In this document: piece by piece, positions 51,912 to 64,000 of the stretch | Numbering within the stretch: position 1 is the stretch's first letter | How the letters are laid out: each line of letters begins with the position of its first letter | Assembly: GCA_902810075.1 (NCBI GenBank) | Contig: LR778135.1 | Coordinates: forward strand, 124,001 to 188,000 | Length of the DNA: 64,000 nt | Source: Ruminococcaceae bacterium BL-6 | Lineage (GTDB): Bacteria > Bacillota > Clostridia > Oscillospirales > Acutalibacteraceae | Reading direction: 5' to 3' | Translations under genes and position numbers: made by a program | Notes under the pieces: generated by a model | The model's database searches: none | Told to the model about the DNA's origin: nothing | The model's input: only the letters and a program-made list of their open reading frames with translations

Positions 51912-51972
51912 AAAGCTTCCCTCTTTCTTTCTGATTATATCTCATCCGGCAATTCCCCTTATGACTCGGTCC

Positions 51973-52335
51973 TGTTTCCGTTCTTCCCCCGACGAAGCCG
52001 GGGAGGAACGGAAACAAATCCTGCATCTTAACAGAAAATGCGATGGGAAAAGGAAAGCCGCCGGCTGTGGCGGCTTTCCGGTATGTAGCCATCCGGGCGC
52101 CCGATTGGCGCCCGGACAAAGGAGAACCTAAAAAGGATCGGGCAGGCAGAGCCGGGATGAAAGCGGCTCTGCCGAAAGCGGAGGAAACAGGTCTTAGGGC
52201 TGGCGTTTTCCCGATGCCCTGTTTTTTAGGGATAACTATTATTTCCATTACAGCTTATGCATGGCCGCTGCATATGTTGAAGAAAAACACCGGGAAAGCA
52301 ATCGGCACAGGCCTGTGTAAGCCTGTGCCGATTGC
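51973..52335. other. Cluster of five strong hairpins, possible structured RNA; includes hairpin repeat copy B
   Basis: In the 511-nt gap between the glycosyltransferase and tctA there are five near-perfect stems: 51973-52016 (17 bp, one G-T; repeat copy B), 52052-52079 (11 bp), 52092-52116 (10 bp), 52145-52173 (9 bp) and 52298-52335 (15 bp). The last one, read on the minus strand just after tctA, could be its terminator. The only open frame (52043-52366, plus) looks spurious. Strand and function of the set are unknown. Confidence 0.5.
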
Positions 52336-52422
52336 GCAAATTTATCTTGTAGAAGGAAACAAATAATCCGGGGCGCCTTAGCAGGGGAGCCTTGGGACGT
52401 CCCGGCGGCGTCATCTAAAACA

Positions 52423-53934
52423 TCACATCTCGATTTCCTCATCGCCGTAGGTCGCTCTGCGCTTTGCCGTGGTAAGGATGCTCACCACCAGGACGGCCGC
52501 TGTGATGAGGAGCATCACGGCGCAGATCGGGCGCTGCACGAACTGCGCGGCATCCCCGCGGAACATGGTCATGGACTGAACCAGTGTGGACTCCATAATG
52601 TCGCCCAGCACAAAGGTCAGGATGATCGGAGCGATCGGGAAGTCTCCCTTTTTCATCAGGTAACCGAGGATGCCGAACAGGAAGGTCATGACGACATCCA
52701 TAACACTGTTGTTGATGCTGTATGTCCCAACGAGGCACAGCACAATGATGATGGGGAACATGATCCGGTTGGGAACATGGGTCAGTTTGGCCCAGAATCC
52801 CGCCATGGGGAGATTCATGAATAAGAGGAGCGTATTCCCGATGAACATGCTCGCGATGACGGCCCAGACCACGTCGGGATTTTCCTGGAACAGCATGGGG
52901 CCCGGCTGAAGGCCGTGCATGACAAACGCGCCGAGCAGGATCGCGATCGTGGGGGAGGTTGGGATCCCCAGCGTGAACAGCGGGATTAGGGAACCGCCAC
53001 AGTAGGCATTGTTGGCTGTTTCGGGGCCGGAGACGCCCTCCACCACGCCGGTGCCGAATTTTTCAGGATGCTTCGACAGCTTCTTTTCCAGCGAATAGCT
53101 CAAAATGGTGGGGATGACGGAGTTTGTGCCGGGCACCAGGCCGATCAGAAAGCCCAGAACGGTTCCGCGGAGGATGGACTTGGTGACAATGGGGCGTTCC
53201 TCCTTTGTCGGGAAAAGCCCCTTGATGGGCGGTATGGTCACTTCGGAATGAAGGTCGGTTTCCAGCGAAAGGAAGATTTCCGACAGGCCGAACAGGCCGA
53301 TGGCAAGGCAGATAAAATCGAGCCCGCTTAAAAGATAGTCCGTTCCCAGCGTAAATCTGGCGATACCGCTGGAATTATCAAGCCCCACCAGGGAAAGCGC
53401 AAGGCCCAGAAAGGCCGAGGTCATGCCTTTGACAAGTGATTTCCCCATAAGGCCGACCACCATGGTCATACCCATCACCATCAGGCAGAAATATTCGGGC
53501 GGCCCGAACTTCAAAGCCTGAGAGGCGACAAACGGCCCGACGAACACCAGCCCTATCATGGCGATCGTGCCGCCGACAAACGAGCCGATTGCGGCTACGC
53601 CGAGCGCGACGCCGGCCCTGCCTTTCTGGGCGAGCGGATAACCTTCCATACAGGTGATGACGGAAGCGGATTCGCCCGGGATGTTGACCAAGACAGAGGT
53701 GATAGTCCCGCCGTACATGGCTCCGTAATAAATTCCCGCCAGCATGATGATGGAACTGGCGGGGCCCATGCCGAAGGTCAGGGGCAGCAGCAGTGCTGTT
53801 CCGGCGGAAGGGCCGAGGCCCGGCAGCACGCCGACCATCATGCCGAAAGCGACGCCGATCAGGCAGTACAGCAGATTATACCAGGTTGCCGCCGCGGCGA
53901 ATCCCTGCAGTAAGTATCCTAGTGATTCTGACAA
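52423..53934 (-). CDS. tctA: Tripartite tricarboxylate transporter, large permease TctA
   Basis: A 503-aa membrane protein, about 12 helices, with the TctA signature [21 protein letters not shown] and the second-half copy [21 protein letters not shown], plus [22 protein letters not shown]. Imports carboxylates with a cation, fed by the binding protein TctC. Last gene of a seven-gene minus-strand operon; overlaps none, 12 nt after tctB. Confidence 0.95.
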
Positions 53935-53946
53935 CGATATCCCTCC

Positions 53947-54411
53947 CTAAATTCCGAATATTCCAACCGGCAGCGGAACCTGCAGCAGAATTTTGAAGAC
54001 CACATAGCACAGGGCCGCCACAATGACGGAAAGGGCGACCGCGCGTTTCCAGCTGTACCCCAACGAGAAAAGCAGGAAAAGCATGATCGCGGCGGCGGGT
54101 AGAAATCCGGTTATGGTTACCAGGGCAAGGAAAACCAGAAGGGCCGCCCATGTGACTATCATATTTTTCAGGCCCGCGCCTTTCGGAAAAATTTGATTCA
54201 GTGCGATTCCTTCCTTTTTCGCTTCGGCGAAGAAGGAGAGGATGGAGAACACGACCAGAAAGGCGCTTACCCAGGTGGACATAAAGGATTCCCCTGGTCC
54301 GTATCCCGACCAGTAGTTCATTCTCCGCGAGCCGATAAACATCGCAAGCCCCAAAAGGAACGTTATGCCGCTTAAACAGACGCCAAGATTTAAATGTAGC
54401 GACTTTCGCAT
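53947..54411 (-). CDS. tctB: Tripartite tricarboxylate transporter, small subunit TctB
   Basis: A 154-aa four-helix membrane protein (LNLGVCLSGITFLLGLAMF ... TWVSAFLVVFSILSFF ... WAALLVFLALVTITGFLPAAAIMLFLLF). Sequence is weakly conserved in the family; size, topology and place between tctC and tctA make the call. Start set at ATG 54411 with AGGGG about 12 nt upstream; an earlier ATG at 54441 is possible. Confidence 0.88.
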   Translation of the reverse strand: MRKSLHLNLGVCLSGITFLLGLAMFIGSRRMNYWSGYGPGESFMSTWVSAFLVVFSILSFFAEAKKEGIALNQIFPKGAGLKNMIVTWAALLVFLALVTITGFLPAAAIMLFLLFSLGYSWKRAVALSVIVAALCYVVFKILLQVPLPVGIFGI

Positions 54412-54523
54412 TGAGAATACTGCACCCCTTTCAAAGGGCAAACCACTTGCCTGCCCTGTTTTTAGACACTCGCCGCGCCGGGGCGGCGTCTCCCGCTGTG
54501 CGGCGGGGAGAGATGTGCAGCCG

Positions 54524-55540
54524 TTATTTCCAGCCCATTACGTCGGCCATGGCTGCCACGTCCTGTTCGCATTTTTTCGCATAGGCGGCATATTCGTCCC
54601 CGCCTATATAGTTGACTACCATTCCCATGTCTTTCATTTTCTGAATATGCTCGGGATTCTGGATCGCTTTTTCAAATGCCTTGGAAATTTTGGCATACAC
54701 CTTTTCATCTACGCCGGCAGGCATAAAGAATCCGCGGTCGGAAGGGGAAAGGACCTCGCTGCTCAGTTTCAGCTCGTTGTAGGTGGGAACGTCGGGGAGC
54801 ACCTCGGAACGCTTGGGTGCGAACACGCACAGAATATCGACCTCTCCGCTCTTGTAGGCCGAGAGCGTTTCGCCAACGGAACCCCAGGCGACGTCGATAT
54901 GTCCGCCGAGAAGAGCGGCGTAGTTGTCGTTCCATCCCGACTGATGGACGGGTACCAGCTTGAGACCCGGAATAGCCTTTTTCAAGCTTTCCGTCACCAT
55001 GTGCTTGTTGCTGCCCTTTCCGGCATCCCCGGCCAGCAACTCATGGGTTTTGGCGTACTCCACCAGATCTTTTGCACTGGAAAAACGTTTATCGCCTTTT
55101 TTTACGACCATCGTGCCCCAGTCGCTGATCTGGTTCGCGATCGTACGGAACGATTCCAGATTTTCCTTGCGATTCTGCTGAGGGTCGAGATATCCGGCGT
55201 AAAAAGCGGGAATATTGAACTGCGCCATGGTATAGCCGTCGGGCGCGGCCTTGGCAAGCTCGTTCCAGGCAATCCAGCCGTTGGCTCCGGTCTTGTTGAC
55301 TACGGTGATGGATGTCCCGAGCTCATTTTCCAGGTAGGGGACCAGCGTGCGCACGCACAGGTCGGAGCCGCCGCCCGCCGACCACGGCACCAGAATCGTG
55401 ATGGGCTTGGTCGGCCAGTTAATGTCGGCTTCAGCGGCTTTGGAACCGGAAGCCTGAGTAGATGTGGAGGGTTTGGCGGAGCAGGACAGAAGCGATAAGA
55501 TCATCAGCAGGGAAAAAACCATACAAGCTGCTTTTTTCAT
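54524..55540 (-). CDS. tctC: TctC-type solute-binding lipoprotein
   Basis: A 338-aa binding protein. Lipobox LLSC with lipidated Cys20, then a Ser/Thr linker and the Bug-type fold (KPITILVPWSAGGGSDLCVRTL, VVNKTGANGWIAWNELAKA, LVPVHQSGWNDNYAALLGGHIDVAWGS). Captures a carboxylate outside the cell for TctAB. Family members bind citrate, glutarate, aromatic acids and many others, so the ligand cannot be read from sequence. Confidence 0.94.
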   Translation of the reverse strand: MKKAACMVFSLLMILSLLSCSAKPSTSTQASGSKAAEADINWPTKPITILVPWSAGGGSDLCVRTLVPYLENELGTSITVVNKTGANGWIAWNELAKAAPDGYTMAQFNIPAFYAGYLDPQQNRKENLESFRTIANQISDWGTMVVKKGDKRFSSAKDLVEYAKTHELLAGDAGKGSNKHMVTESLKKAIPGLKLVPVHQSGWNDNYAALLGGHIDVAWGSVGETLSAYKSGEVDILCVFAPKRSEVLPDVPTYNELKLSSEVLSPSDRGFFMPAGVDEKVYAKISKAFEKAIQNPEHIQKMKDMGMVVNYIGGDEYAAYAKKCEQDVAAMADVMGWK

Positions 55541-55578
55541 GATGAAATCTCCTTTTATGTTTTTTTGAATACAATCCG

Positions 55579-56562
55579 TTATAAAGAGTGAACTTTATAC
55601 TCTGGATTTACCAAGTCGCGCTTTGAAAACTCCCTCCCTTCCAGGGCATCCATCAGATTGTTCATGCAGTGCCGTGCACAAAACGCATGATTATCGAGCG
55701 TGGAGCCCCCGATATGCGGAGTGCAGATTACATTCTCAAAAGTCAGCAGGCGGTTGCCGGATTCAACGGGCTCGTTTGCGAACGTATCGATCCCGGCACC
55801 GCTCAGCCGATTTCCTTCCAGTGCGTCGGCCAAAGCCTGTTCATCCACAATTTTTCCGCGGGCTGTGTTGATGAGAACGGCTTCCGGTTTCATTCTGCCG
55901 ATCTCTTCCCTTCCGATCAGACCCTCCGTCTGGGCGGTCAGCGGAACATGGATGCTGACGATGTCCGAGGTTCCCATCAGGGTATCCAGGGAGACATAAG
56001 AGGCCCGCAGATCCTGCTCCTGCCGTGCGGTGCCCCGGACCAGGTCATAATACTGGACCTTTGCGCCGAAAACGTTTACTTTTTCCGCGACCAGGCGCGC
56101 GATATTTCCGAAACCGACAAGGCCCACGGTTTTTCCGCTGAGCGTGCGGGCCTGTTCCAGAATTTCGGGAATTAGCCAGGTACCGCGGTGAACGGAGCGG
56201 TCCGCCAGGGTGATGCGGCGCAGGACCGCCAGCATCAGCAGAACCGCATGTTCCGAAACGGAAACGGCATTAACGCCCGCGGCAATCAGAACGGGGATTC
56301 CCCGCTCTGTCGCGCATGCGACATCCACCTTGTCATATCCAGAGCCCCACCTCTGGATTACTTCCAGCTTGGGGGCGGCGGAAATAACCTCGCGGTTGAT
56401 CAGCATCTGCCGGGTGATCATATAGTGGATGTTTCTGAGTTTGCTGTGATCGTCTTCGGGTGAAATCAATTCCAGTTCAAATTGATTCGGCAGAAGCCGG
56501 GTTACCTCCCGGATCATATTGTTGTCGAATCTTCCGACCAGACCTAAAATTTTTTTTGCCAT
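55579..56562 (-). CDS. D-isomer-specific 2-hydroxyacid dehydrogenase
   Basis: A 327-aa NAD(P) enzyme: Rossmann loop VGLVGFGNIARLVAEKV, catalytic Arg in WGSGYDKVDV, NTARGKIVDEQAL, Glu in TFANEPVESGN and His in ICTPHIGGSTLD. Interconverts a 2-oxoacid with its D-2-hydroxyacid. In the tct operon the substrate is presumably the imported acid; a role as 2-hydroxyglutarate dehydrogenase for the glutamate pathway is possible but unsupported by position. Confidence 0.92.
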   Translation of the reverse strand: MAKKILGLVGRFDNNMIREVTRLLPNQFELELISPEDDHSKLRNIHYMITRQMLINREVISAAPKLEVIQRWGSGYDKVDVACATERGIPVLIAAGVNAVSVSEHAVLLMLAVLRRITLADRSVHRGTWLIPEILEQARTLSGKTVGLVGFGNIARLVAEKVNVFGAKVQYYDLVRGTARQEQDLRASYVSLDTLMGTSDIVSIHVPLTAQTEGLIGREEIGRMKPEAVLINTARGKIVDEQALADALEGNRLSGAGIDTFANEPVESGNRLLTFENVICTPHIGGSTLDNHAFCARHCMNNLMDALEGREFSKRDLVNPEYKVHSL

Positions 56563-56616
56563 ATGTATTTCTGATTCCTTTCCGTAATTGCCGGCGAATT
56601 TGGCAGGGTATGGTGT

Positions 56617-57621
56617 TTATCGCTCTTCGGGCAGAGTTTCCGCTACGGACAGAATCAGCTCTTCCGACGGATTTTTTCGATTTTGGGCAGACACTTCGAC
56701 GATCAGGCGGTAAAGGCTGACCTTCTTTTCCGCGGCGATCCGGGTGAACAGCTTCAGGAAGCTGGAGTGACAGCCGGAATAGCCCAGAATCAGCTCGATG
56801 GGCGTGATGGCGGGCCGGTAATCATGAAGCTTCATGGCCGGGATCAGCTCTTCGTCCAGGAAGCGCAGAAGTCCATACAGGTCGATCCCGGGTTCCAGCA
56901 GTCCTGTGTGCTGCAGGACCGCGGCGGCGGCCTCGGTGGGAATGTTTCCGGCGCTGCGTGCCATGCCGAGCAGCCCGCAGTCGATCACCCGGGCGCCGTG
57001 TTCCGCCGCCGCCAGTGCATTTGCAATCGAGAGGCCCAGATTGTTGTGCCCGTGGAATCCGACGGGGATGGAAAGGGCGTGTGAAAGAGCCTCCGAATAC
57101 CGGGCAGCCTGCTCCGGTGTCATGGTGCCGGCCGAATCCATGATGGTAATCTCGTCAAGACCTTTGGATTCCAGCAGCTTCGCTTCCTCCGCCAGTTGTT
57201 CCGGAGTCAAAAGATAGGCTTTCATCATGGAATAGCGCGCTTTCAGCCCGTATTCCTTCACCTTGGCGAGCGGCTCCAGCGCAATGGCGGCGTCGCCTGC
57301 ATCCGCGCCGATCCGCAAAAATGAAAGGCCGTTTTCCGCGGCAAGGGCGACGCTCTTTTCACGGTAGCGCTTTGCGTTCAGGAACATTCCGATTTCCGCT
57401 TTTTTCAGATAGGGACGGGCCAGATCCAGGTATTCCCGGTCGGTGAGCGGTGCGATGAATTTGGCTACCTCATATGCGCCGATTCCGCCGGAATTCCCGT
57501 ATTCGATCACTTTGATTCCGCTGCGGATCAGGCCGGACAGCATCATGTCGGTCAGCTCGGCCGAAAAGCCTTTTCCGACCACATTGGCACCGTCTCTTAA
57601 AGTACAATCCAACAATTGCAT
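56617..57621 (-). CDS. DRE-TIM aldolase (4-hydroxy-2-oxovalerate aldolase/HMG-CoA lyase-like)
   Basis: A 334-aa TIM-barrel enzyme: LLDCTLRDG (metal-binding Asp and catalytic Arg), ITIMDSAGTMTPEQ, metal-binding GFHGHNNLGLSIANALAAAEHG and DCGLLGMARSAGNIPTEAA. Closest in style to DmpG/MhpE aldolases, which split 4-hydroxy-2-oxoacids to pyruvate and an aldehyde; the usual acetaldehyde dehydrogenase partner is not present. Could also act as a synthase or lyase on a CoA-free substrate. Confidence 0.85.
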   Translation of the reverse strand: MQLLDCTLRDGANVVGKGFSAELTDMMLSGLIRSGIKVIEYGNSGGIGAYEVAKFIAPLTDREYLDLARPYLKKAEIGMFLNAKRYREKSVALAAENGLSFLRIGADAGDAAIALEPLAKVKEYGLKARYSMMKAYLLTPEQLAEEAKLLESKGLDEITIMDSAGTMTPEQAARYSEALSHALSIPVGFHGHNNLGLSIANALAAAEHGARVIDCGLLGMARSAGNIPTEAAAAVLQHTGLLEPGIDLYGLLRFLDEELIPAMKLHDYRPAITPIELILGYSGCHSSFLKLFTRIAAEKKVSLYRLIVEVSAQNRKNPSEELILSVAETLPEER

Positions 57622-57648
57622 GGAAAGATTCTCCTTTGTCAGTTTCTG

Positions 57649-58674
57649 TTATTGACCGTCTTTGTTCAGATCCAGAATTTTAGAATAGGTCGCCTCCGAA
57701 AGAAGAAGGGAATCCGGGCCGCCGTTTCTTCGGGATTCCTCCAGCTCGCCGGGGATCAGGATCTGTTTCACGCCGGAGCGGGTCTTGGAATTTTTGATTT
57801 TCTCGAACCATTCTCCGCCGCGCCACTCGAACTGCTCCGGGTCGGTGAAATGGGCGATGTCGAACGCGCCGAAAAAGTGGCCGGTGCCCGCTTTGCCGTG
57901 CGAGTCGAACATCCCCTCGGATTCGCAGCTCAGCCGCGCTCCGCTGAGCAGGCAGCAGAAAGCCTCGATCACCATTGCGATCCCGTATCCTTTATGGCCC
58001 GCCATGGGCAGCAGGCTGCCGGAAATCGCCGCCGCAGGGTCGGTCGTATCGTTGCCGTATTTGTTGAGCGCCCAGCCGCGCGGAAGGCATTTTCCTTCCC
58101 GTTCGAAAATGCGGATCTTTCCTTTTGCCACCGCACTGACGGCGATGTCCAGGGTAAAAGGGACGTGTCCCCTTACGGGAAAGGAAACGGCGAACGGGTC
58201 GGTGCCGAGCAGGGGCTCCATGCCGCCGAACGGTGCCATCGCGGGGCCGGCCGCCGTGCACGCGAAACCGATGCACCCTTCCCGCGCCGCCATTCTGGAA
58301 AAATAAGAGGCGGCCCCAAAATGGTTGGAATTGCGTACGGCCGCAAAACAGGCCCCGTGTTTTTTCGCCCCCGCCACACATTCCTGCATCGCCCGGTGCG
58401 CCACCACCTGCCCAAGGCCGTCTCCCCCGTCGATGGAAAGGGCGCAGTCCCTCTCGGAAACGGTGATCTCCGGCACCGGGGAGATCAGGCCCTGGCGGAT
58501 TCTTCGGATATAGGCGGGCAGCCGGATCAGCCCGTGGGATTCGATGCCGCAGATTTCCGCATCGAGCAGCGTGTCAGTCAGAAGATCGGCATCCTGCTCG
58601 GGCACTCCGGCACTGTGCAGGATTTTCAGACAACATTCGGTCAGGTCGGAAATGGAAACGCAAGTTTTTGACAC
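57649..58674 (-). CDS. Ldh2/malate-L-lactate dehydrogenase family oxidoreductase
   Basis: A 341-aa enzyme of the NAD(P)-dependent Ldh2/ComC family: ESHGLIRLPAYIRRI, VRNSNHFGAASYFSRMA, GTDPFAVSFPV and LPMAGHKGYGIAMVIEAFCCLLSG. Oxidises L-type 2-hydroxyacids such as malate, lactate, sulfolactate or ureidoglycolate. GTG 58674 follows AAAGGGGCGG; the longer opening to 58932 runs into the next gene. Its presence with a D-type dehydrogenase in one operon suggests a two-enzyme racemising route. Confidence 0.9.
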   Translation of the reverse strand: MSKTCVSISDLTECCLKILHSAGVPEQDADLLTDTLLDAEICGIESHGLIRLPAYIRRIRQGLISPVPEITVSERDCALSIDGGDGLGQVVAHRAMQECVAGAKKHGACFAAVRNSNHFGAASYFSRMAAREGCIGFACTAAGPAMAPFGGMEPLLGTDPFAVSFPVRGHVPFTLDIAVSAVAKGKIRIFEREGKCLPRGWALNKYGNDTTDPAAAISGSLLPMAGHKGYGIAMVIEAFCCLLSGARLSCESEGMFDSHGKAGTGHFFGAFDIAHFTDPEQFEWRGGEWFEKIKNSKTRSGVKQILIPGELEESRRNGGPDSLLLSEATYSKILDLNKDGQ

Positions 58675-58699
58675 AGTTTGTCCGCCCCTTTCTGAACTT

Positions 58700-59254
58700 C
58701 TATTTTTGTGATAGACCGAGCGTGGAACAGCGGAAGACAAACAGATCCATGTCCCGGATGAAATCAGCCTCCGCGGTCCGGAACGAACGGTCCCCTTCAA
58801 ACGAATGGACGGCAATGATATGGACCACTTCGTCGGGCAGGCCGGCTTTCGCCGCCAGAATCGCGCCCGAAAGCGGGTGGCGGAGCAGATCCCCGGTTTT
58901 CCCGTGGACGGCCCTCCCGCTTTCCATCGCATACTCCGTGAACTTGCCCAGGTCGTGTGTCAGTGCGCCGCAGATCAGGATATCCCGGTCAACCCGCTTT
59001 CCGTGACGCACAAAGTATTTGTCCAGAAACAGATAGTTCCGAAGCACCGCCTGCGTCACATCGCGGATGTGCTCGATCAGGCCGACGTCGCAGTTTCCCC
59101 GGCTGATGCTTACCGGCGCATGGAGGACATCCTCGTCGCTCCAGCCGCCCTCTTTGATCGCAAGCTGAAAGGCCGAAACAGTCTGGTCGCGCAGCTTTTC
59201 CGACCTGATCTCCAGAATCTCGGGCAAAAGCGCTAAAATTTGTTGCCGTTCCAT
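58700..59254 (-). CDS. HD-domain protein (phosphohydrolase fold)
   Basis: A 184-aa HD-superfamily protein: GLIEHIRDVTQAV (first His), CGALTHDLGKFTEY (HD motif), RHPLSGAILAAKAGLP and IIAVHSFEGDR. Such enzymes use two metals to hydrolyse phosphates or other small molecules. ATG 59254 has AAGGAG 7 nt upstream; the frame opens at 59332 without one. First gene of the operon after the divergent LysR promoter, so it likely belongs to the pathway. Confidence 0.88.
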   Translation of the reverse strand: MERQQILALLPEILEIRSEKLRDQTVSAFQLAIKEGGWSDEDVLHAPVSISRGNCDVGLIEHIRDVTQAVLRNYLFLDKYFVRHGKRVDRDILICGALTHDLGKFTEYAMESGRAVHGKTGDLLRHPLSGAILAAKAGLPDEVVHIIAVHSFEGDRSFRTAEADFIRDMDLFVFRCSTLGLSQK

Positions 59255-59318
59255 CCAAGCACTCCTTTCCCCCTTCTTTTTTACTAACAAGAGAGATAAA
59301 ATTTTGTAAAAATGTTCA

Positions 59319-59367
59319 TTGATTCTTAACACTTTTTATGATAACATCAAAATACGACAAAATCCAA
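59319..59367. promoter_or_regulatory. Overlapping divergent promoters, LysR gene and HD-tct operon
   Basis: Plus: TTGATT (59319-59324), 17 nt, TAACAT (59342-59347). Minus: TTGGAT (59367-59362), 18 nt, TATCAT (59343-59338). The two overlap face to face in a 163-nt gap, the classic LysR layout. Confidence 0.55.
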
Positions 59368-59417
59368 CAGATTATTATAGATTGTGAGACAGCCTTTTTG
59401 CTGTTGGGGGAGTGGAA

Positions 59418-60410
59418 ATGAGTTTTCTCAGCCTGAATTATTTTCTGGTTGCCGCGGAAGAGATGAATATCACAAAAGCGGCGCAGCGCCTTTACATTAC
59501 CCAGCAGTCGCTCAGCTCCCACATACAGCGGCTGGAAGAGCACTATGGAGTTCGCCTTTTCGAGCGGAAGCCGGCATTGAAGCTGACGGTGGCCGGCGAA
59601 TATATGGTGACGTTCGCAAACCGGATTCTGTTCTTGGAAAAGCAGATGGTTTCTCAGTTTTCGGAGCTTTCCGAAAAAAATATCGGCCGGCTCACCGTGG
59701 GGTTTTCCCGCTCCCGTTCCAGAATTTTTATGCCGGATATCTGGTCGCTGTACCATGCCCAATATCCCAACATCGATGTGGTGCTGGTAGACGCGCTGAC
59801 CGTACAGTTCGACGAGATGCTTCAGGATGGGAAGATCGACCTTTATATCGGGGTGGATGCGCCCGAAGAATCCAATACCTGCTGTACGCACCTTGTCCAG
59901 GAACGGCTTTACTGCATTATGAGCGAGGAGCTTCTGAAGAAATGCCTGCCCGGCACCTGGAAGCAGTTTTTGGTGAACGCCCGGAGCGGGCTGGACCTGA
60001 ACTGTATCCGGAATTTTCCATTTATCATGCTGCCGCCGAACAACCGGTTCCGTGCCCGGGTCGACCGTTATTTTTCCTCGATCGGCGTGATCCCTCACAT
60101 CGTGTTTGAAACCAGCCAGCATGAGATGATTTATGCCCTTTGCCGGCAGTCATACGGCGTGGGCCTGATCTCGCAGATGTACCTGTACCAGCCGCTGAAG
60201 CAGCCCGAAGAAAAAGGGGCCTTTTATGTGTTTCCGATCAAAAACAATATCGGCTCCAGCACGATCGACCTTGTCTATCGGTTCAGCAACCCCATGCCGA
60301 AATATATCCGGGCCTTTCTGGATTCAGTGGAAGCCGTATTTCAGACGTATACGGATTCGGTGGATTCCATGATAGAAAAAGCGACCGGAATCTGTGCCGC
60401 CGAAGGATAA
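59418..60410 (+). CDS. LysR-family transcriptional regulator
   Basis: A 330-aa LTTR: N-terminal wHTH (LNYFLVAAEEMNITKAAQRLYITQQSLSSHIQRLEEHYGVRLFER in part) and a substrate-binding domain (LTVGFSRSRSRIFMPDIW, DLYIGVDAPEESNT, SYGVGLISQMYLYQPL). ATG 59418 is 6 nt from GGGGGAG; a GTG at 59412 is too close. Divergent from the seven-gene tct operon, it most likely activates it in response to the imported acid or an intermediate. Confidence 0.94.
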   Translation: MSFLSLNYFLVAAEEMNITKAAQRLYITQQSLSSHIQRLEEHYGVRLFERKPALKLTVAGEYMVTFANRILFLEKQMVSQFSELSEKNIGRLTVGFSRSRSRIFMPDIWSLYHAQYPNIDVVLVDALTVQFDEMLQDGKIDLYIGVDAPEESNTCCTHLVQERLYCIMSEELLKKCLPGTWKQFLVNARSGLDLNCIRNFPFIMLPPNNRFRARVDRYFSSIGVIPHIVFETSQHEMIYALCRQSYGVGLISQMYLYQPLKQPEEKGAFYVFPIKNNIGSSTIDLVYRFSNPMPKYIRAFLDSVEAVFQTYTDSVDSMIEKATGICAAEG

Positions 60411-60493: not shown

Positions 60494-61054
60494 TTAGACG
60501 ACTTCCACGATGGTCAGATTGGCCTGAATGGGCGACGTGCCGTAAGTGACTGTCGCGCCGCTGTTGTTGAACAGGTTGAAGACCAGCGGGACGGTCGTTA
60601 CGGTGAGCAGGGCGCTTCCGTTGAGCTGAAGCGTGACGACCGGCGAAGGCGAAGAAGCCAGAACCGTCTGGGCGCCTCCGGCGACGACCCGGATGCCGAA
60701 CGAAACGTTGGTTGCCGCTTCGGCGCCGTCTGTGTTGACCCACCAGGAAATATAATAATTGCCCGGCTGAGTGATGAAGAAGTTTCCGACTCCCGCGTTG
60801 TAGGTGATGTTAGCGGAGGGAGCGTTGACGGTGGTATCGAACAGGACGTTGGTACCGGTCGCGACCGTGCCGCCGCTGCTGCCCTGCAGCTGAACCTGCA
60901 GGCCGGAAAGCTCGGAACCAGGGCCCGTAGGCCCTGTGGGGCCGGTCGGGCCGGTGGGACCCGTGCCGCCCGTCGGACCCGTAGGCCCTGTGGGGCCGGT
61001 TGGGCCGGTGGGACCAGTAGCGGCATCCGTTTCTGCACAACCGCGCTTTTTCAC
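60494..61054 (-). CDS. Collagen-like protein with C-terminal beta domain (BclA-like), 3' part of a split gene?
   Basis: As read, 186 aa from GTG 61054: a short start ([12 protein letters not shown]), 11 Gly-X-Y triplets (GPT, one GGT) at residues 14-46, and a 140-aa C-terminal domain ([63 protein letters not shown]) like the trimeric jelly-roll domains of BclA-type exosporium fibres. The start lacks a clear ribosome site, and the first 12 codons fall inside the inverted repeat that bounds the adjacent recombinase segment, so the present N-terminus may be supplied by that element. The real gene may continue upstream at 63060 onward. Terminates convergent to LysR. Confidence 0.75.
61022..61043 (+). 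repeat. Left inverted repeat of the recombinase element
   Basis: Twenty-two nt ending TTTCTGCACAACCG. Inverted match (20 of 22, last 14 perfect) to 63037-63058. Contains an imperfect palindrome around TGCA. May be half of the recombinase attachment site. Confidence 0.6.
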
Positions 61055-61127
61055 CCTGCGCTTCCATCATATCGGACATCCCGCCCGGCATATGCTGGGA
61101 TGAAATCCGGGAAAGGGGATGCGCGGG

Positions 61128-61397
61128 ATGAAAGAGGCGGGAAAATCTTCGGCTCAGCCGGAGGCGAATGAAATCCGGGAGGACGATCTGGTGCAGATCG
61201 AAGAGATTCAGATCGACACATCGCTTCCGCCGGAACAGCGGATGAGGGATTATTTGAAGAAGGTCAAAAATCCGTATGCGTTCCGGTGCGGGCAGATCAC
61301 GGTGCGGCTCTGTTTCGACCCGGACGGAAAGGGGCTGGGCGATCTGCTTCGGGACTATTTTATCAAAAAGCAGGCCGACGGCTCCTTTATGGAGTGA
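61128..61397 (+). CDS. Small recombinase-associated protein (89 aa)
   Basis: Acidic-then-basic small protein with SLPPEQRMRDYLKKVKNPYAFRCGQITV and a C-terminus LGDLLRDYFIKKQ. Similar short proteins with the IKNPY.F..G core sit just upstream of large serine recombinases in Clostridia mobile elements (DUF6870-like, from memory). Start at ATG 61128 is 9 nt from AAAGGGG (61112-61118); ATG 61119 abuts it. The recombinase starts 14 nt downstream. Function unknown; a directionality or DNA-binding helper is a guess. Confidence 0.7.
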   Translation: MKEAGKSSAQPEANEIREDDLVQIEEIQIDTSLPPEQRMRDYLKKVKNPYAFRCGQITVRLCFDPDGKGLGDLLRDYFIKKQADGSFME

Positions 61398-61411
61398 AAG
61401 GAACGGGAAGA

Positions 61412-62998
61412 ATGGCGCGCGTTCACGGGATGCCGGAGGCCGGCTGGAAGGTGGCGGTTTATATCCGCCTTTCCAAAGAAGACGGAAACGACGAAAGCCT
61501 AAGCGTGGGGAATCAGAAAAAAATAGCGCTGGATTATCTGGAGCATTCGTTTGAAGGCGTTTGTCGGACGGTGGATTTTTATACGGATGACGGGCTGACG
61601 GGGACGGACTACGACCGCCCCGGATTTCAGCGGATGCTGCGCGGGATAGAGGCGGGGAAGATCGACTGCGTTGTGTGCAAGAACCTGTCCCGGGCATTCC
61701 GGAACTATGCGGATCAGGGGTATTTTCTGGAAAATTATTTTCCGCGGCACGGCACGCGGTTTATCACCATCGGGGACCCGCGGGTGGACAGTTATCTGCA
61801 CCCCGAAACCATTCAGAATCTGGAAGTGCCGATCACGGGATTGATGAACGACCGCTTTGCCTGCAGGACATCCGGGGATATCCGCGCGACCTTCGACACG
61901 AAACGCAGGAACGGCGAGTTCATCGGCGCATTTGCGCCGTACGGCTATCAGAAGGACCCGAACAACAAAAACGCCCTCGTTCCGGACGAAGAAGCGGCCC
62001 GGGTGGTCAGGCGGATTTTTCTGTGGTTCGCGTACGCGGGCATGAGCAAAAACGGAATCGCGAGAAAGCTGAACGAATGGGCGGTGCCGAACCCCACGGA
62101 ATACAAGCGGCGGAGCGGCATGAAATACCATAATCCCAGCGGGGCCGGGAACGACGGGCTTTGGAGCGCCGGCACCGTCGCGCGGATCCTGAGCAATCCG
62201 GTGTATCTCGGCCATATGGTGCAGGGGCGGCAGAAGGTCGTCAGCTACAAGGTGCACGACAAGGTTCCGGTGCCCCGGGAAAAATGGTTCGTCAAAGAGA
62301 ACACCCATGCCCCGGTCGTCGATGCGGAAACCTTTGAGAGAGCGCAGAGCCTTCAGCAGCAAAATACCCGCACCGCGCCGAGCTGCGGCAGGCTGTCCCT
62401 GTTTTCGGGATTCCTGCGCTGCTCCGGCTGCGGAAAGGCGCTTTCGAGGAAGCGCGCAAAAAATCATGTTTACTATTTCTGCCGGACGTATCGGGAAAAA
62501 TCCAGAACCAGATGCACCAGGCATTCCATCCGGGAAGAGGATCTTCGGGCCGCCGTCCTGCTTGCAATTCAAAAGCAGGAGGAGCTGGTGCGTCCGTTTC
62601 CGGCGGACATCCGCACGCCCCGCCCTTCCGGCGGGTGGGATGGGGGCCGCCTGCTGGCGCTTCGCCGGCAGGCGTGGAAGCGTGTCGCCGCGCAGATCGA
62701 CAGCCTTTATCCGGACTGGAAAAACGGGGACCTGACAAGGCAGGAATATCACAGGCTGAAAGAAAAGCTGACGAAGCAGGCCGCCGCGCTGGAACAGGCG
62801 GTGGCATCGCTGGAGCAGGAAACGGAGGAAGAAAAGGAAGAAAAAGACGCCGATTCGGGGGCCACGGCGGGCGCGCGGGGAATCCTCCGGCTGGAGCGGG
62901 GAATCCTGGCGCAACTGGTGAGCCGGATCGACGTGGGGGAAGGCGGGATCACGATACGGTTTCGGTTCGCGGACCCTTATCAAAAAAGTCCGGGATGA
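61412..62998 (+). CDS. Large serine recombinase
   Basis: A 528-aa, apparently intact site-specific recombinase. N-terminal catalytic domain [11 protein letters not shown] with nucleophile Ser21, [16 protein letters not shown], and the Arg-bearing [14 protein letters not shown]. Recombinase domain [30 protein letters not shown], then a zinc ribbon ([12 protein letters not shown] ... [15 protein letters not shown]) and a C-terminal coiled coil ([20 protein letters not shown]). Family members integrate, excise or invert DNA between short sites; SpoIVCA of the skin element is one. Start ATG 61412 has AAAGGAAC 8 nt upstream. Ends beside a bidirectional hairpin. Confidence 0.93.
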
Positions 62999-63025
62999 CA
63001 GGAAACAGCTGCCATCCCGGACTTT
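62985..63025 (-). terminator. Hairpin terminator between recombinase and collagen remnant
   Basis: Thirteen-base-pair perfect stem AAAGTCCGGGATG (62985-62997) with complement (63013-63025). The minus strand continues CTTTTTTGA, so it stops transcripts coming through the collagen repeats; on the plus strand it follows the recombinase stop. Confidence 0.65.
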
Positions 63026-63036
63026 CCCGGGAGGAA

Positions 63037-63058
63037 CGGTTGTGCAGAAAAGGCTGCC
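63037..63058 (+). repeat. Right inverted repeat of the recombinase element
   Basis: Starts CGGTTGTGCAGAAA; inverted copy of 61022-61043. Lies immediately inside the last Gly-X-Y codons of the upstream collagen segment. Confidence 0.6.
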
Positions 63059-63064
63059 CCTGTT

Positions 63065-63514: not shown

Positions 63515-63620
63515 GGCCCGACCGGGCCTTGGGCGCCCGTTGCGCCGGCGGGGCCTTGCGGGCCGGTCGGCCCAGTCGCCCCGGTCGCCCCGGTTGCGCC
63601 GTTTTCAACAGGAATACCGG

Positions 63621-64000
63621 TTATGGTGGAAAATGCAGAAGCGGGTCGGAGCAGCGCAGATGAATGCGAACCGCTCCGTTTTCTCCGACTGAAATCGTGT
63701 CCACCAGCTCCGTCAGCAGGCCGCGGGTCAGCGACGGGAGGCTGCCATCTTTTTGAAATGCCGCCCAGTCCGGGGAAACGCCGTTTCCTGCCCGCGGTTT
63801 TCCGGCTTCTTCCCGAATGACATCCAGGGACCGGCGAAGCTCCTTCTCCCTTTGCTCGTACCGCCGGCGCAGAGCCCGGTAATCGCCGCGAGAAAGATCG
63901 CCATCCCGCAGCGTTTCGTACAGGGACCGTTTGTAAAATAAGGTTCTTTCCAGCTCGCGCTCCCTGCTTTGCAGCATGGAAGAAAGGCGCGCTCCGCTTT
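63621..64000 (-). CDS. Second serine recombinase, C-terminal part (continues beyond window)
   Basis: The frame is open from the window edge to TAA 63623-63621. It encodes the coiled-coil and C-terminal section of a large serine recombinase: [36 protein letters not shown], then [26 protein letters not shown], matching the same region of the recombinase at 61412 in pattern ([23 protein letters not shown]) but not in detail. Its last codons overlap, in another frame, the start-less collagen segment downstream. Confidence 0.75.

Follow-up and report, generated by a model that had tools for sequence, protein, structure and literature searches.

Two small serine recombinase elements within the repeats of a spore-surface-type collagen gene

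Near the end of a 64,000-nucleotide stretch of the Ruminococcaceae bacterium BL-6 genome (contig LR778135.1, here C1; the whole stretch is called the window), a collagen-like gene on the minus strand breaks off at a short segment encoding a large serine recombinase (LSR). Has the gene been destroyed, or does it carry its interruptions as removable parts? Its likely ATG lies outside the window at C1:192071, adjoining a GerK-type germination operon, and two recombinase elements, element 1 and element 2, separate that start from the C-terminal codons. We consider it probable that this is one spore-surface collagen gene, split by two LSR elements that inserted at attachment sites (attB) within the repeat DNA, and that they are excised in the mother cell during sporulation.

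One collagen gene in three parts

When both elements are removed from the sequence, the composite is a single 492-codon frame with no internal stop and a BclA_C-like tail, and its 96 consecutive Gly-X-Y triplets keep their phase across both junctions, which fall at about residues 142 and 319. Precise loss of both elements would restore one continuous collagen gene. The gene is of the exosporium type, beside the GerK-type operon and with a sigma-K-like -10 box upstream. Its C-terminal domain scores 33.6 bits against PF18573 (BclA_C), for which the Pfam cut-off is 38; P0007, 83% identical to this domain, is listed with PF18573.

An initial annotation of the window had proposed a very small LSR element as the interruption of an exosporium-type collagen gene, noting minus-strand collagen codons on both outer sides and a Gly-X-Y frame that its removal restores. 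The arms of element 1 and the frame, unbroken across the junction, bear this out. The repeat-rich part from position 63060 upwards, which the same annotation joined to the C-terminal part, is not the N terminus of the gene; it is a middle segment with no start, entered from element 2, and its upstream end is the boundary of that element.

The crossover of element 1 can be placed exactly. The annotated inverted repeats (61022-61043 and 63037-63058) are real and do enclose a small open reading frame (ORF) and an open LSR frame, but they were drawn too short: each arm is 25 nt long (Table 1), and the two agree at 22 of 25 positions, while the best of 60 shuffles of the 150-nt flanks reached 17. 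Directly outside both arms stands the AC of a Gly-X-Thr codon, a crossover that is symmetric and in frame, and the join reads GGC GCA AC/T GGT (slash at the crossover), or Gly-Ala-Thr-Gly. The crossover first suggested, at a shared GC, is asymmetric and its join breaks the triplet phase. A caution that the crossover sat 3 nt off the centre of the repeats is void, since at either end the arm follows AC immediately; the offset arose because another shared dinucleotide had been taken. As the AC cores lie in the same orientation on the same strand at both ends, deletion is expected and not inversion, and an invertible phase-variation switch is ruled out by these direct sites. We regard the elements and their predicted crossover as firmly supported by sequence.

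Element 2 has the same design, with arms alike at 20 of 25 positions (shuffled maximum 18) beside an AC core. LSR1 and LSR2 each have a Resolvase N domain, a Recombinase domain and a zinc ribbon in one open frame, all above the Pfam cut-offs. They share 44% identity and fall on separate branches of the recombinase tree, so the two elements would most simply represent independent insertions. No phage structural or replication genes occur in either: element 1 holds a gene for the small protein DUF6870 and LSR1, and element 2 holds LSR2 and GltS, a sodium/glutamate symporter at C1:189517-190752 (ORFs of at least 120 aa). A model search of the ORFs of element 2 found no DUF6870. In a related genome, G003, a GltS-like symporter lies between the collagen and glycosyltransferase genes (C17:61712-63319, L100), but in the window genome it lies inside element 2.

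Table 1. Features of the split collagen locus (window positions unless marked C1)
Feature	Position	Strand	Details
Window	C1:124001-188000		One-contig genome of 3.44 Mb
Collagen C-terminal part	60494..61018	-	11 Gly-X-Y triplets and BclA_C-like domain
Element 1, core to core	61019..63063		2,045 bp; core AC at minus-strand 63063 and 61018
Element 1 inner arm, C-part side (attP half-site)	61019..61043	+	AGCGGCATCCGTTTCTGCACAACCG
Small ORF, DUF6870 (PF21757), candidate recombination directionality factor (RDF) or partner	61119..61397	+	E 5e-25
LSR1, large serine recombinase	61412..62998	+	ATG at 61412; PF00239, PF07508, PF13408
Element 1 inner arm, middle-segment side (attP half-site)	63037..63061	-	AGGGGCAGCCTTTTCTGCACAACCG
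Collagen middle segment	63062..63594	-	Gly-X-Y only; cores included
Element 2	C1:187594-191648; window 63595 to equivalent of 67648		4,054 bp; starts inside window, ends outside; LSR2 and GltS
Element 2 inner arm, middle-segment side	63595..63619	+	Core AC at minus-strand 63594
LSR2	C1:187621-189222; window 63621..64000 is the 3' end	-	Beyond window from 64001

A crossover written in collagen codons

The AC crossover recurs among related elements. Matching of arms alone yielded, among other pairs, those of both elements here and of L013, L022, L105 (genome G015) and L102 (G002), and in all six an AC, read by eye, lies in phase beside the arms. All 16 dinucleotides were then compared in 28 sequences, with in-phase collagen ends and arms of at least 15/25 required: AC gave in-phase pairs in 12 sequences, GC in 4, CC and GG in 3 each, CA, GT and TG in 1 each, and the others in none. 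The AC pair in L016 was dropped as spurious, its LSR not lying inside the pair, which leaves AC in 11 of 28. The resolved elements number 14, from ten genomes and of 2.0 to 15.9 kb, and include two pairs each in L009 and in contig 4 of G001 and a second, weaker pair in L014 (14/25). Gly is kept at every third residue in all 14 joins, largely by construction of the search. In element A of L014 the LSR frame passes the core without a stop of its own. Ends were left unplaced for elements on contigs C41, C45 and C53 of G003 and C3 of G001, in L011, L017, L018, L025, L042 and in others, in part because contigs or flanks stop. In one subgroup of the clade (L149, L150, L153 and L167), the arm GTTTTCCTAATAGGAG is followed by unrelated DNA.

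The attB consensus of the 14 elements, GGnCCn-AC-nGGnCC, has a simple source. Gly-Pro-Thr codons write GGn CCn AC nGG nCC, which is pseudo-symmetric about the AC of the Thr codon, and the collagen repeat itself thus appears to be the attB. A cut at codon positions 1 and 2 of ACN would let both insertion and precise excision keep the Gly-X-Y phase. A comparison of two loci from different families, L140 (G071) and L141 (G173), bears on the same boundary: their DNA is identical from the 3' end of the LSR through AC, after which different collagen genes follow. On the upstream side of the LSR they match at 758 of 774 bases until similarity gives out. This comparison supports the AC boundary without any arm matching, and amounts to proof of it.

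A relative on the circular plasmid CP141730.1 (72.6 kb; L170 and L171) points to the other half of the reaction. There, DUF6870 and an LSR are followed, behind the LSR, by a two-armed site of 17/25 centred on GT (AC when read on the opposite strand). The runner-up among two-armed sites in this stretch reaches 16/25, and the 19.5 kb in question also contain hairpins of 19 and 22/25 at other places. A pseudo-symmetric attP, the site of the free element, about a 2-bp core common to attB is found in this LSR group. The plasmid encodes ParA, ParB, a MobP3 relaxase and conjugation genes, and MOB-suite classes it as non-mobilizable. It also bears genes annotated rpsI and rplM.

Multiple splitting is seen beyond the window. 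L014 has two elements, of 4.9 and 2.06 kb, in one collagen gene. On contig 4 of G001, all in one orientation, an 11.4-kb element follows the N part; then come a middle part interrupted by an assembly gap, three LSRs in one stretch, another middle part, and finally an element of 15.9 kb before the C part. The gene probably holds three elements, the middle one not placed by the AC rule. That middle element, with three LSRs of another kind, does not follow the rule. Its three tandem LSRs of another clade (G001:C4:110857-115831, L106) stand behind a DUF6870-like ORF and recall the three recombinases of gin.

Uninterrupted relatives, which the initial annotation had suggested looking for, also exist. 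G002, of the same genus, has two element-free collagen genes at the syntenic LepA-GerK-collagen-glycosyltransferase locus. The second stays open for 759 aa, and the repeats of the first contain two in-frame stops, TGA codons at the same point of two repeats (L108, G002:C4, ~522770-522860), for which a pseudogene, recoding or an assembly error could account. Continuous collagens with the same C domain (81-83% identity) and other N termini come from Desulfitobacterium hafniense, D. chlororespirans and ENA/JGI sources. The same locus is split by another element in G003, and in G001 its C side adjoins another element on a contig that starts inside the collagen gene. LepA of the window genome is 98% identical to an ENA/JGI protein and 87% to that of Faecalispora. 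In the window, ~8.5 kb of metabolic genes (51942-60410) separate the collagen C part from the glycosyltransferase, which in G002 and G001 directly follows the collagen gene.

A recombinase clade and its targets

Association with collagen genes follows recombinase relatedness. We compared 105 LSR loci for collagen tracts no more than 1.6 kb away, dividing them at 400 bits against LSR1, a cut set after the table was seen. At or above the cut, 27 of 50 loci have such a tract, and below it 1 of 55. One of the 27, L168, stands for the second element in the gene that holds LSR1 and scored through LSR1 in its flank; the single low-scoring case consists of four triplets and touches the LSR. In a tree of 78 rows, from which duplicates, short rows and those below 240 bits had been dropped, LSR1 and LSR2 fall in a clade of 52 with support 100/99, and 34 of these sit at collagen genes. 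Three location labels, set by hand, change 14 times on the tree, against a shuffled mean of 29.8, and none of 200 shuffles came as low. LSR1 also matches YokA (chain 9dxh, E 7.6e-17), which we take to be the SPbeta integrase SprA. At E<=1e-100, LSR1-like matches were found in 32 of 394 genomes of the order and 5 of 391 of the class, the window genome being counted in both.

A sister clade of 10 rows (support 97/96) has another target: in 6 of the 10, a SpoVAD C-terminal part (PF07451, profile ~200-329) follows the LSR. At L145, L146, L148, L152, L160 and L161 it lies just 3' of the LSR, and six genomes thus seem to have spoVAD interrupted by DUF6870-LSR elements. At L156, a different spore-surface-type protein, with an N domain like that of P0001, lies 3' of the LSR and is perhaps another class of target.

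DUF6870 tracks the same recombinases. It lies upstream of the LSR at 39 of 60 loci of at least 400 bits, 5 of 8 at 300-400 bits and 2 of 43 below 300 (four locus pairs overlap, and L168 repeats the flank of LSR1). Its predicted structure, two helices and a two-stranded hairpin, has a mean pLDDT (predicted local distance difference test) of 82.8 and a pTM (predicted template modelling score) of 0.63. DUF6870 is perhaps the directionality factor for the LSR.

A phage origin of the elements was considered and rejected. Of the 44 stretches in viral_contigs that fitted a pattern, none encodes a relative. In a phage collection 18 records match at E<=1e-40; among the matches listed these are mostly small faecal scaffolds, the best at 42%, and the matching records hold no convincing attP.

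Is the split gene still used?

Selection on the severed tail speaks to whether the interrupted gene has a function. G001 and G003 share an orthologous C part cut at the same place by related elements, whose LSRs share 86% identity; in G003 the contig ends before the N side of the element. Between the two genomes, the C part has a synonymous divergence (dS) of 0.386 and a nonsynonymous divergence (dN) of 0.172, a ratio of 0.447 that is below 1 at p = 0.0015, and its dN/dS against G000 is 0.173 and 0.142. Purifying selection acts on the severed C part, which suggests that it is still in use, if only some of the time. The dS of the LSR at the C part (0.504) fits those of other genes (MATE neighbour 0.569, FliC 0.645, other LSR 0.510, glycosyltransferase 0.270, cargo gene 0.299), so the element has likely been inherited since the two lineages split. 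Repeated loss and re-entry of the element in these lineages may also have occurred.

Some features would suit use during sporulation. CATAnnnTA, which we take to be the sigma-K -10 box, lies 64 to 99 nt before the start in all six collagen genes searched (200 nt upstream; one each in G000 and G001, two each in G002 and G003). Open frames for sigK (above the NCBIfam cut-off), SpoIIID and SpoVAD are present in the window genome. According to excerpts of PMC5595907, SPbeta and the Clostridioides difficile skin element (skinCd) pair a constitutive recombinase with a sporulation-controlled RDF, and the recombinase itself is sporulation-specific in B. subtilis skin, vfbin and gin; an excerpt of PMC5025042 has the skinCd LSR integrating alone and requiring the RDF for excision. 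Given this control, mother-cell excision is the likeliest reading. By analogy with skin, SPbeta and gin, excision is probable here, and sporulating mother cells are where we would most expect it.

In the mechanism we propose, each element would have been inserted by its own LSR at an attB that Gly-Pro-Thr repeat DNA supplies about the AC of its Thr codon, and the free element would bear a symmetric attP with this AC at its centre. Excision in the terminal mother cell would be the work of the LSR, with a possible directionality factor in DUF6870, which element 2 lacks. The spore surface would then receive the 492-aa protein, and the germ line would retain the elements.

Several points weigh against this proposal. 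The constraint on the tail (0.447) is weaker than on MATE (0.126), the glycosyltransferase (0.165) or the LSRs (0.131 and 0.147), and resembles that on FliC (0.450). With dS scattered from 0.27 to 0.65, inheritance since the split is likely but not proven. Most of the 14 resolved elements were picked by a search that required AC and phase, so their agreement is partly built in; six came from arm matching alone. No collagen was seen for 18 of the 52 clade rows. A sigma-K-like box is not clearly enriched upstream of the LSRs: among LSRs scoring 400 bits or more, 8 of 60 have one against 4.4 expected, and among the others 2 of 51 against 5.1. As spoVAD is a forespore gene, excision from it would be heritable, and the sister clade thus misfits a pure mother-cell model.

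The strongest rival is plain selfish insertion: the elements would use the repeats, plentiful and safe to enter, as a landing site in a gene the cell can do without, simply disabling it, and would leave only rarely and without regulation. This would suit the finding of one recombinase element in two families, each time in a different collagen gene, and that of a relative on a plasmid bearing conjugation genes. It would also suit the cargo of elements of up to 15.9 kb, which includes transporters and two-component systems, and the patchy occurrence among order and class genomes. Selfish insertion is nonetheless unlikely, as the severed tails are open and under purifying selection, two elements share one gene with all parts in frame, and the sister clade occupies spoVAD, an important spore gene.

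Stochastic phase variation, with low-frequency exit and re-entry in growing cells switching the spore-surface collagen between lineages, seems improbable to us. The protein is of a surface type, LSR frames and attachment sites look intact, and a free two-armed site is found on a circular carrier. However, the skinCd LSR needs an RDF for excision (excerpt of PMC5025042), the direct cores allow no inversion, and among four genomes of the genus no empty allele was found besides the divergent genes of G002. That the C part is a separate gene with its own GTG start, the N and middle parts belonging to an unrelated one, is very improbable: a 186-aa GTG ORF (60494-61054) is present, but its GTG lies inside element 1 beyond the arm, matching arms and in-phase joins tie the parts together, the middle part has no start, and six of seven homologues examined (12 found; P0012 differs) are collagen proteins that end in this C domain, in a search that could return only proteins of ~270-860 aa, stand-alone C domains being outside its range.

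The proposed mother-cell excision would belong to a known kind of system. The gin element in the sporulation gene gerE of Bacillus cereus ATCC10987 (excerpts of PMC5595907) is likewise of non-phage type and encodes serine recombinases; it has an imperfect inverted-repeat attachment site with a central dinucleotide, and rebuilds its gene on excision. It differs in its gerE target, three recombinases and single insertion, whereas here the target is collagen repeats, with one LSR per element, two elements per gene and a smallest size of ~2.05 kb; its excision was demonstrated, while ours is predicted from sequence. SPbeta splits the spore-envelope gene spsM of Bacillus subtilis and is excised in the mother cell (excerpt of PMC4191935), but as a full prophage with a single attB in a unique gene, unlike the minimal elements and repetitive target here. 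The skin element in sigK of C. difficile is also LSR-based (excerpt of PMC5025042), its excision needing an identified, sporulation-specific RDF; its target is a sigma factor gene, and here DUF6870 is only a candidate. The yin element in yabG of a clostridium (excerpt of PMC10747680) is another excisable element in a clostridial sporulation gene, prophage-like and with yabG in place of collagen as target. In open-licence literature searched by title and start of abstract, nothing among the matches listed concerned LSR elements in collagen-like genes, LSRs in spoVAD or DUF6870, and the collagen target, codon-based attB, clade-wide habit and multiple splitting found no match.

Each sporulation element found in that literature is an isolated case in one gene. 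What we describe is a recombinase clade tied to one class of spore-surface gene through codon geometry, across many clostridial genomes. This offers a reason for the preference of LSRs for spore genes, and integrases that take a codon repeat as target. The elements may provide minimal two-gene systems for studies of LSR directionality, with DUF6870 as a candidate new RDF family, and truncated collagen genes in clostridial assemblies may need re-annotation. Tentatively, collagen repeats could be an array of symmetric attB sites in which small LSR elements live as removable introns; their independent exit or cross-recombination would give truncated, partly joined and full collagens, with parts shuffled between genes. 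If so, a spore-former could choose among collagen forms and diversify its spore surface.

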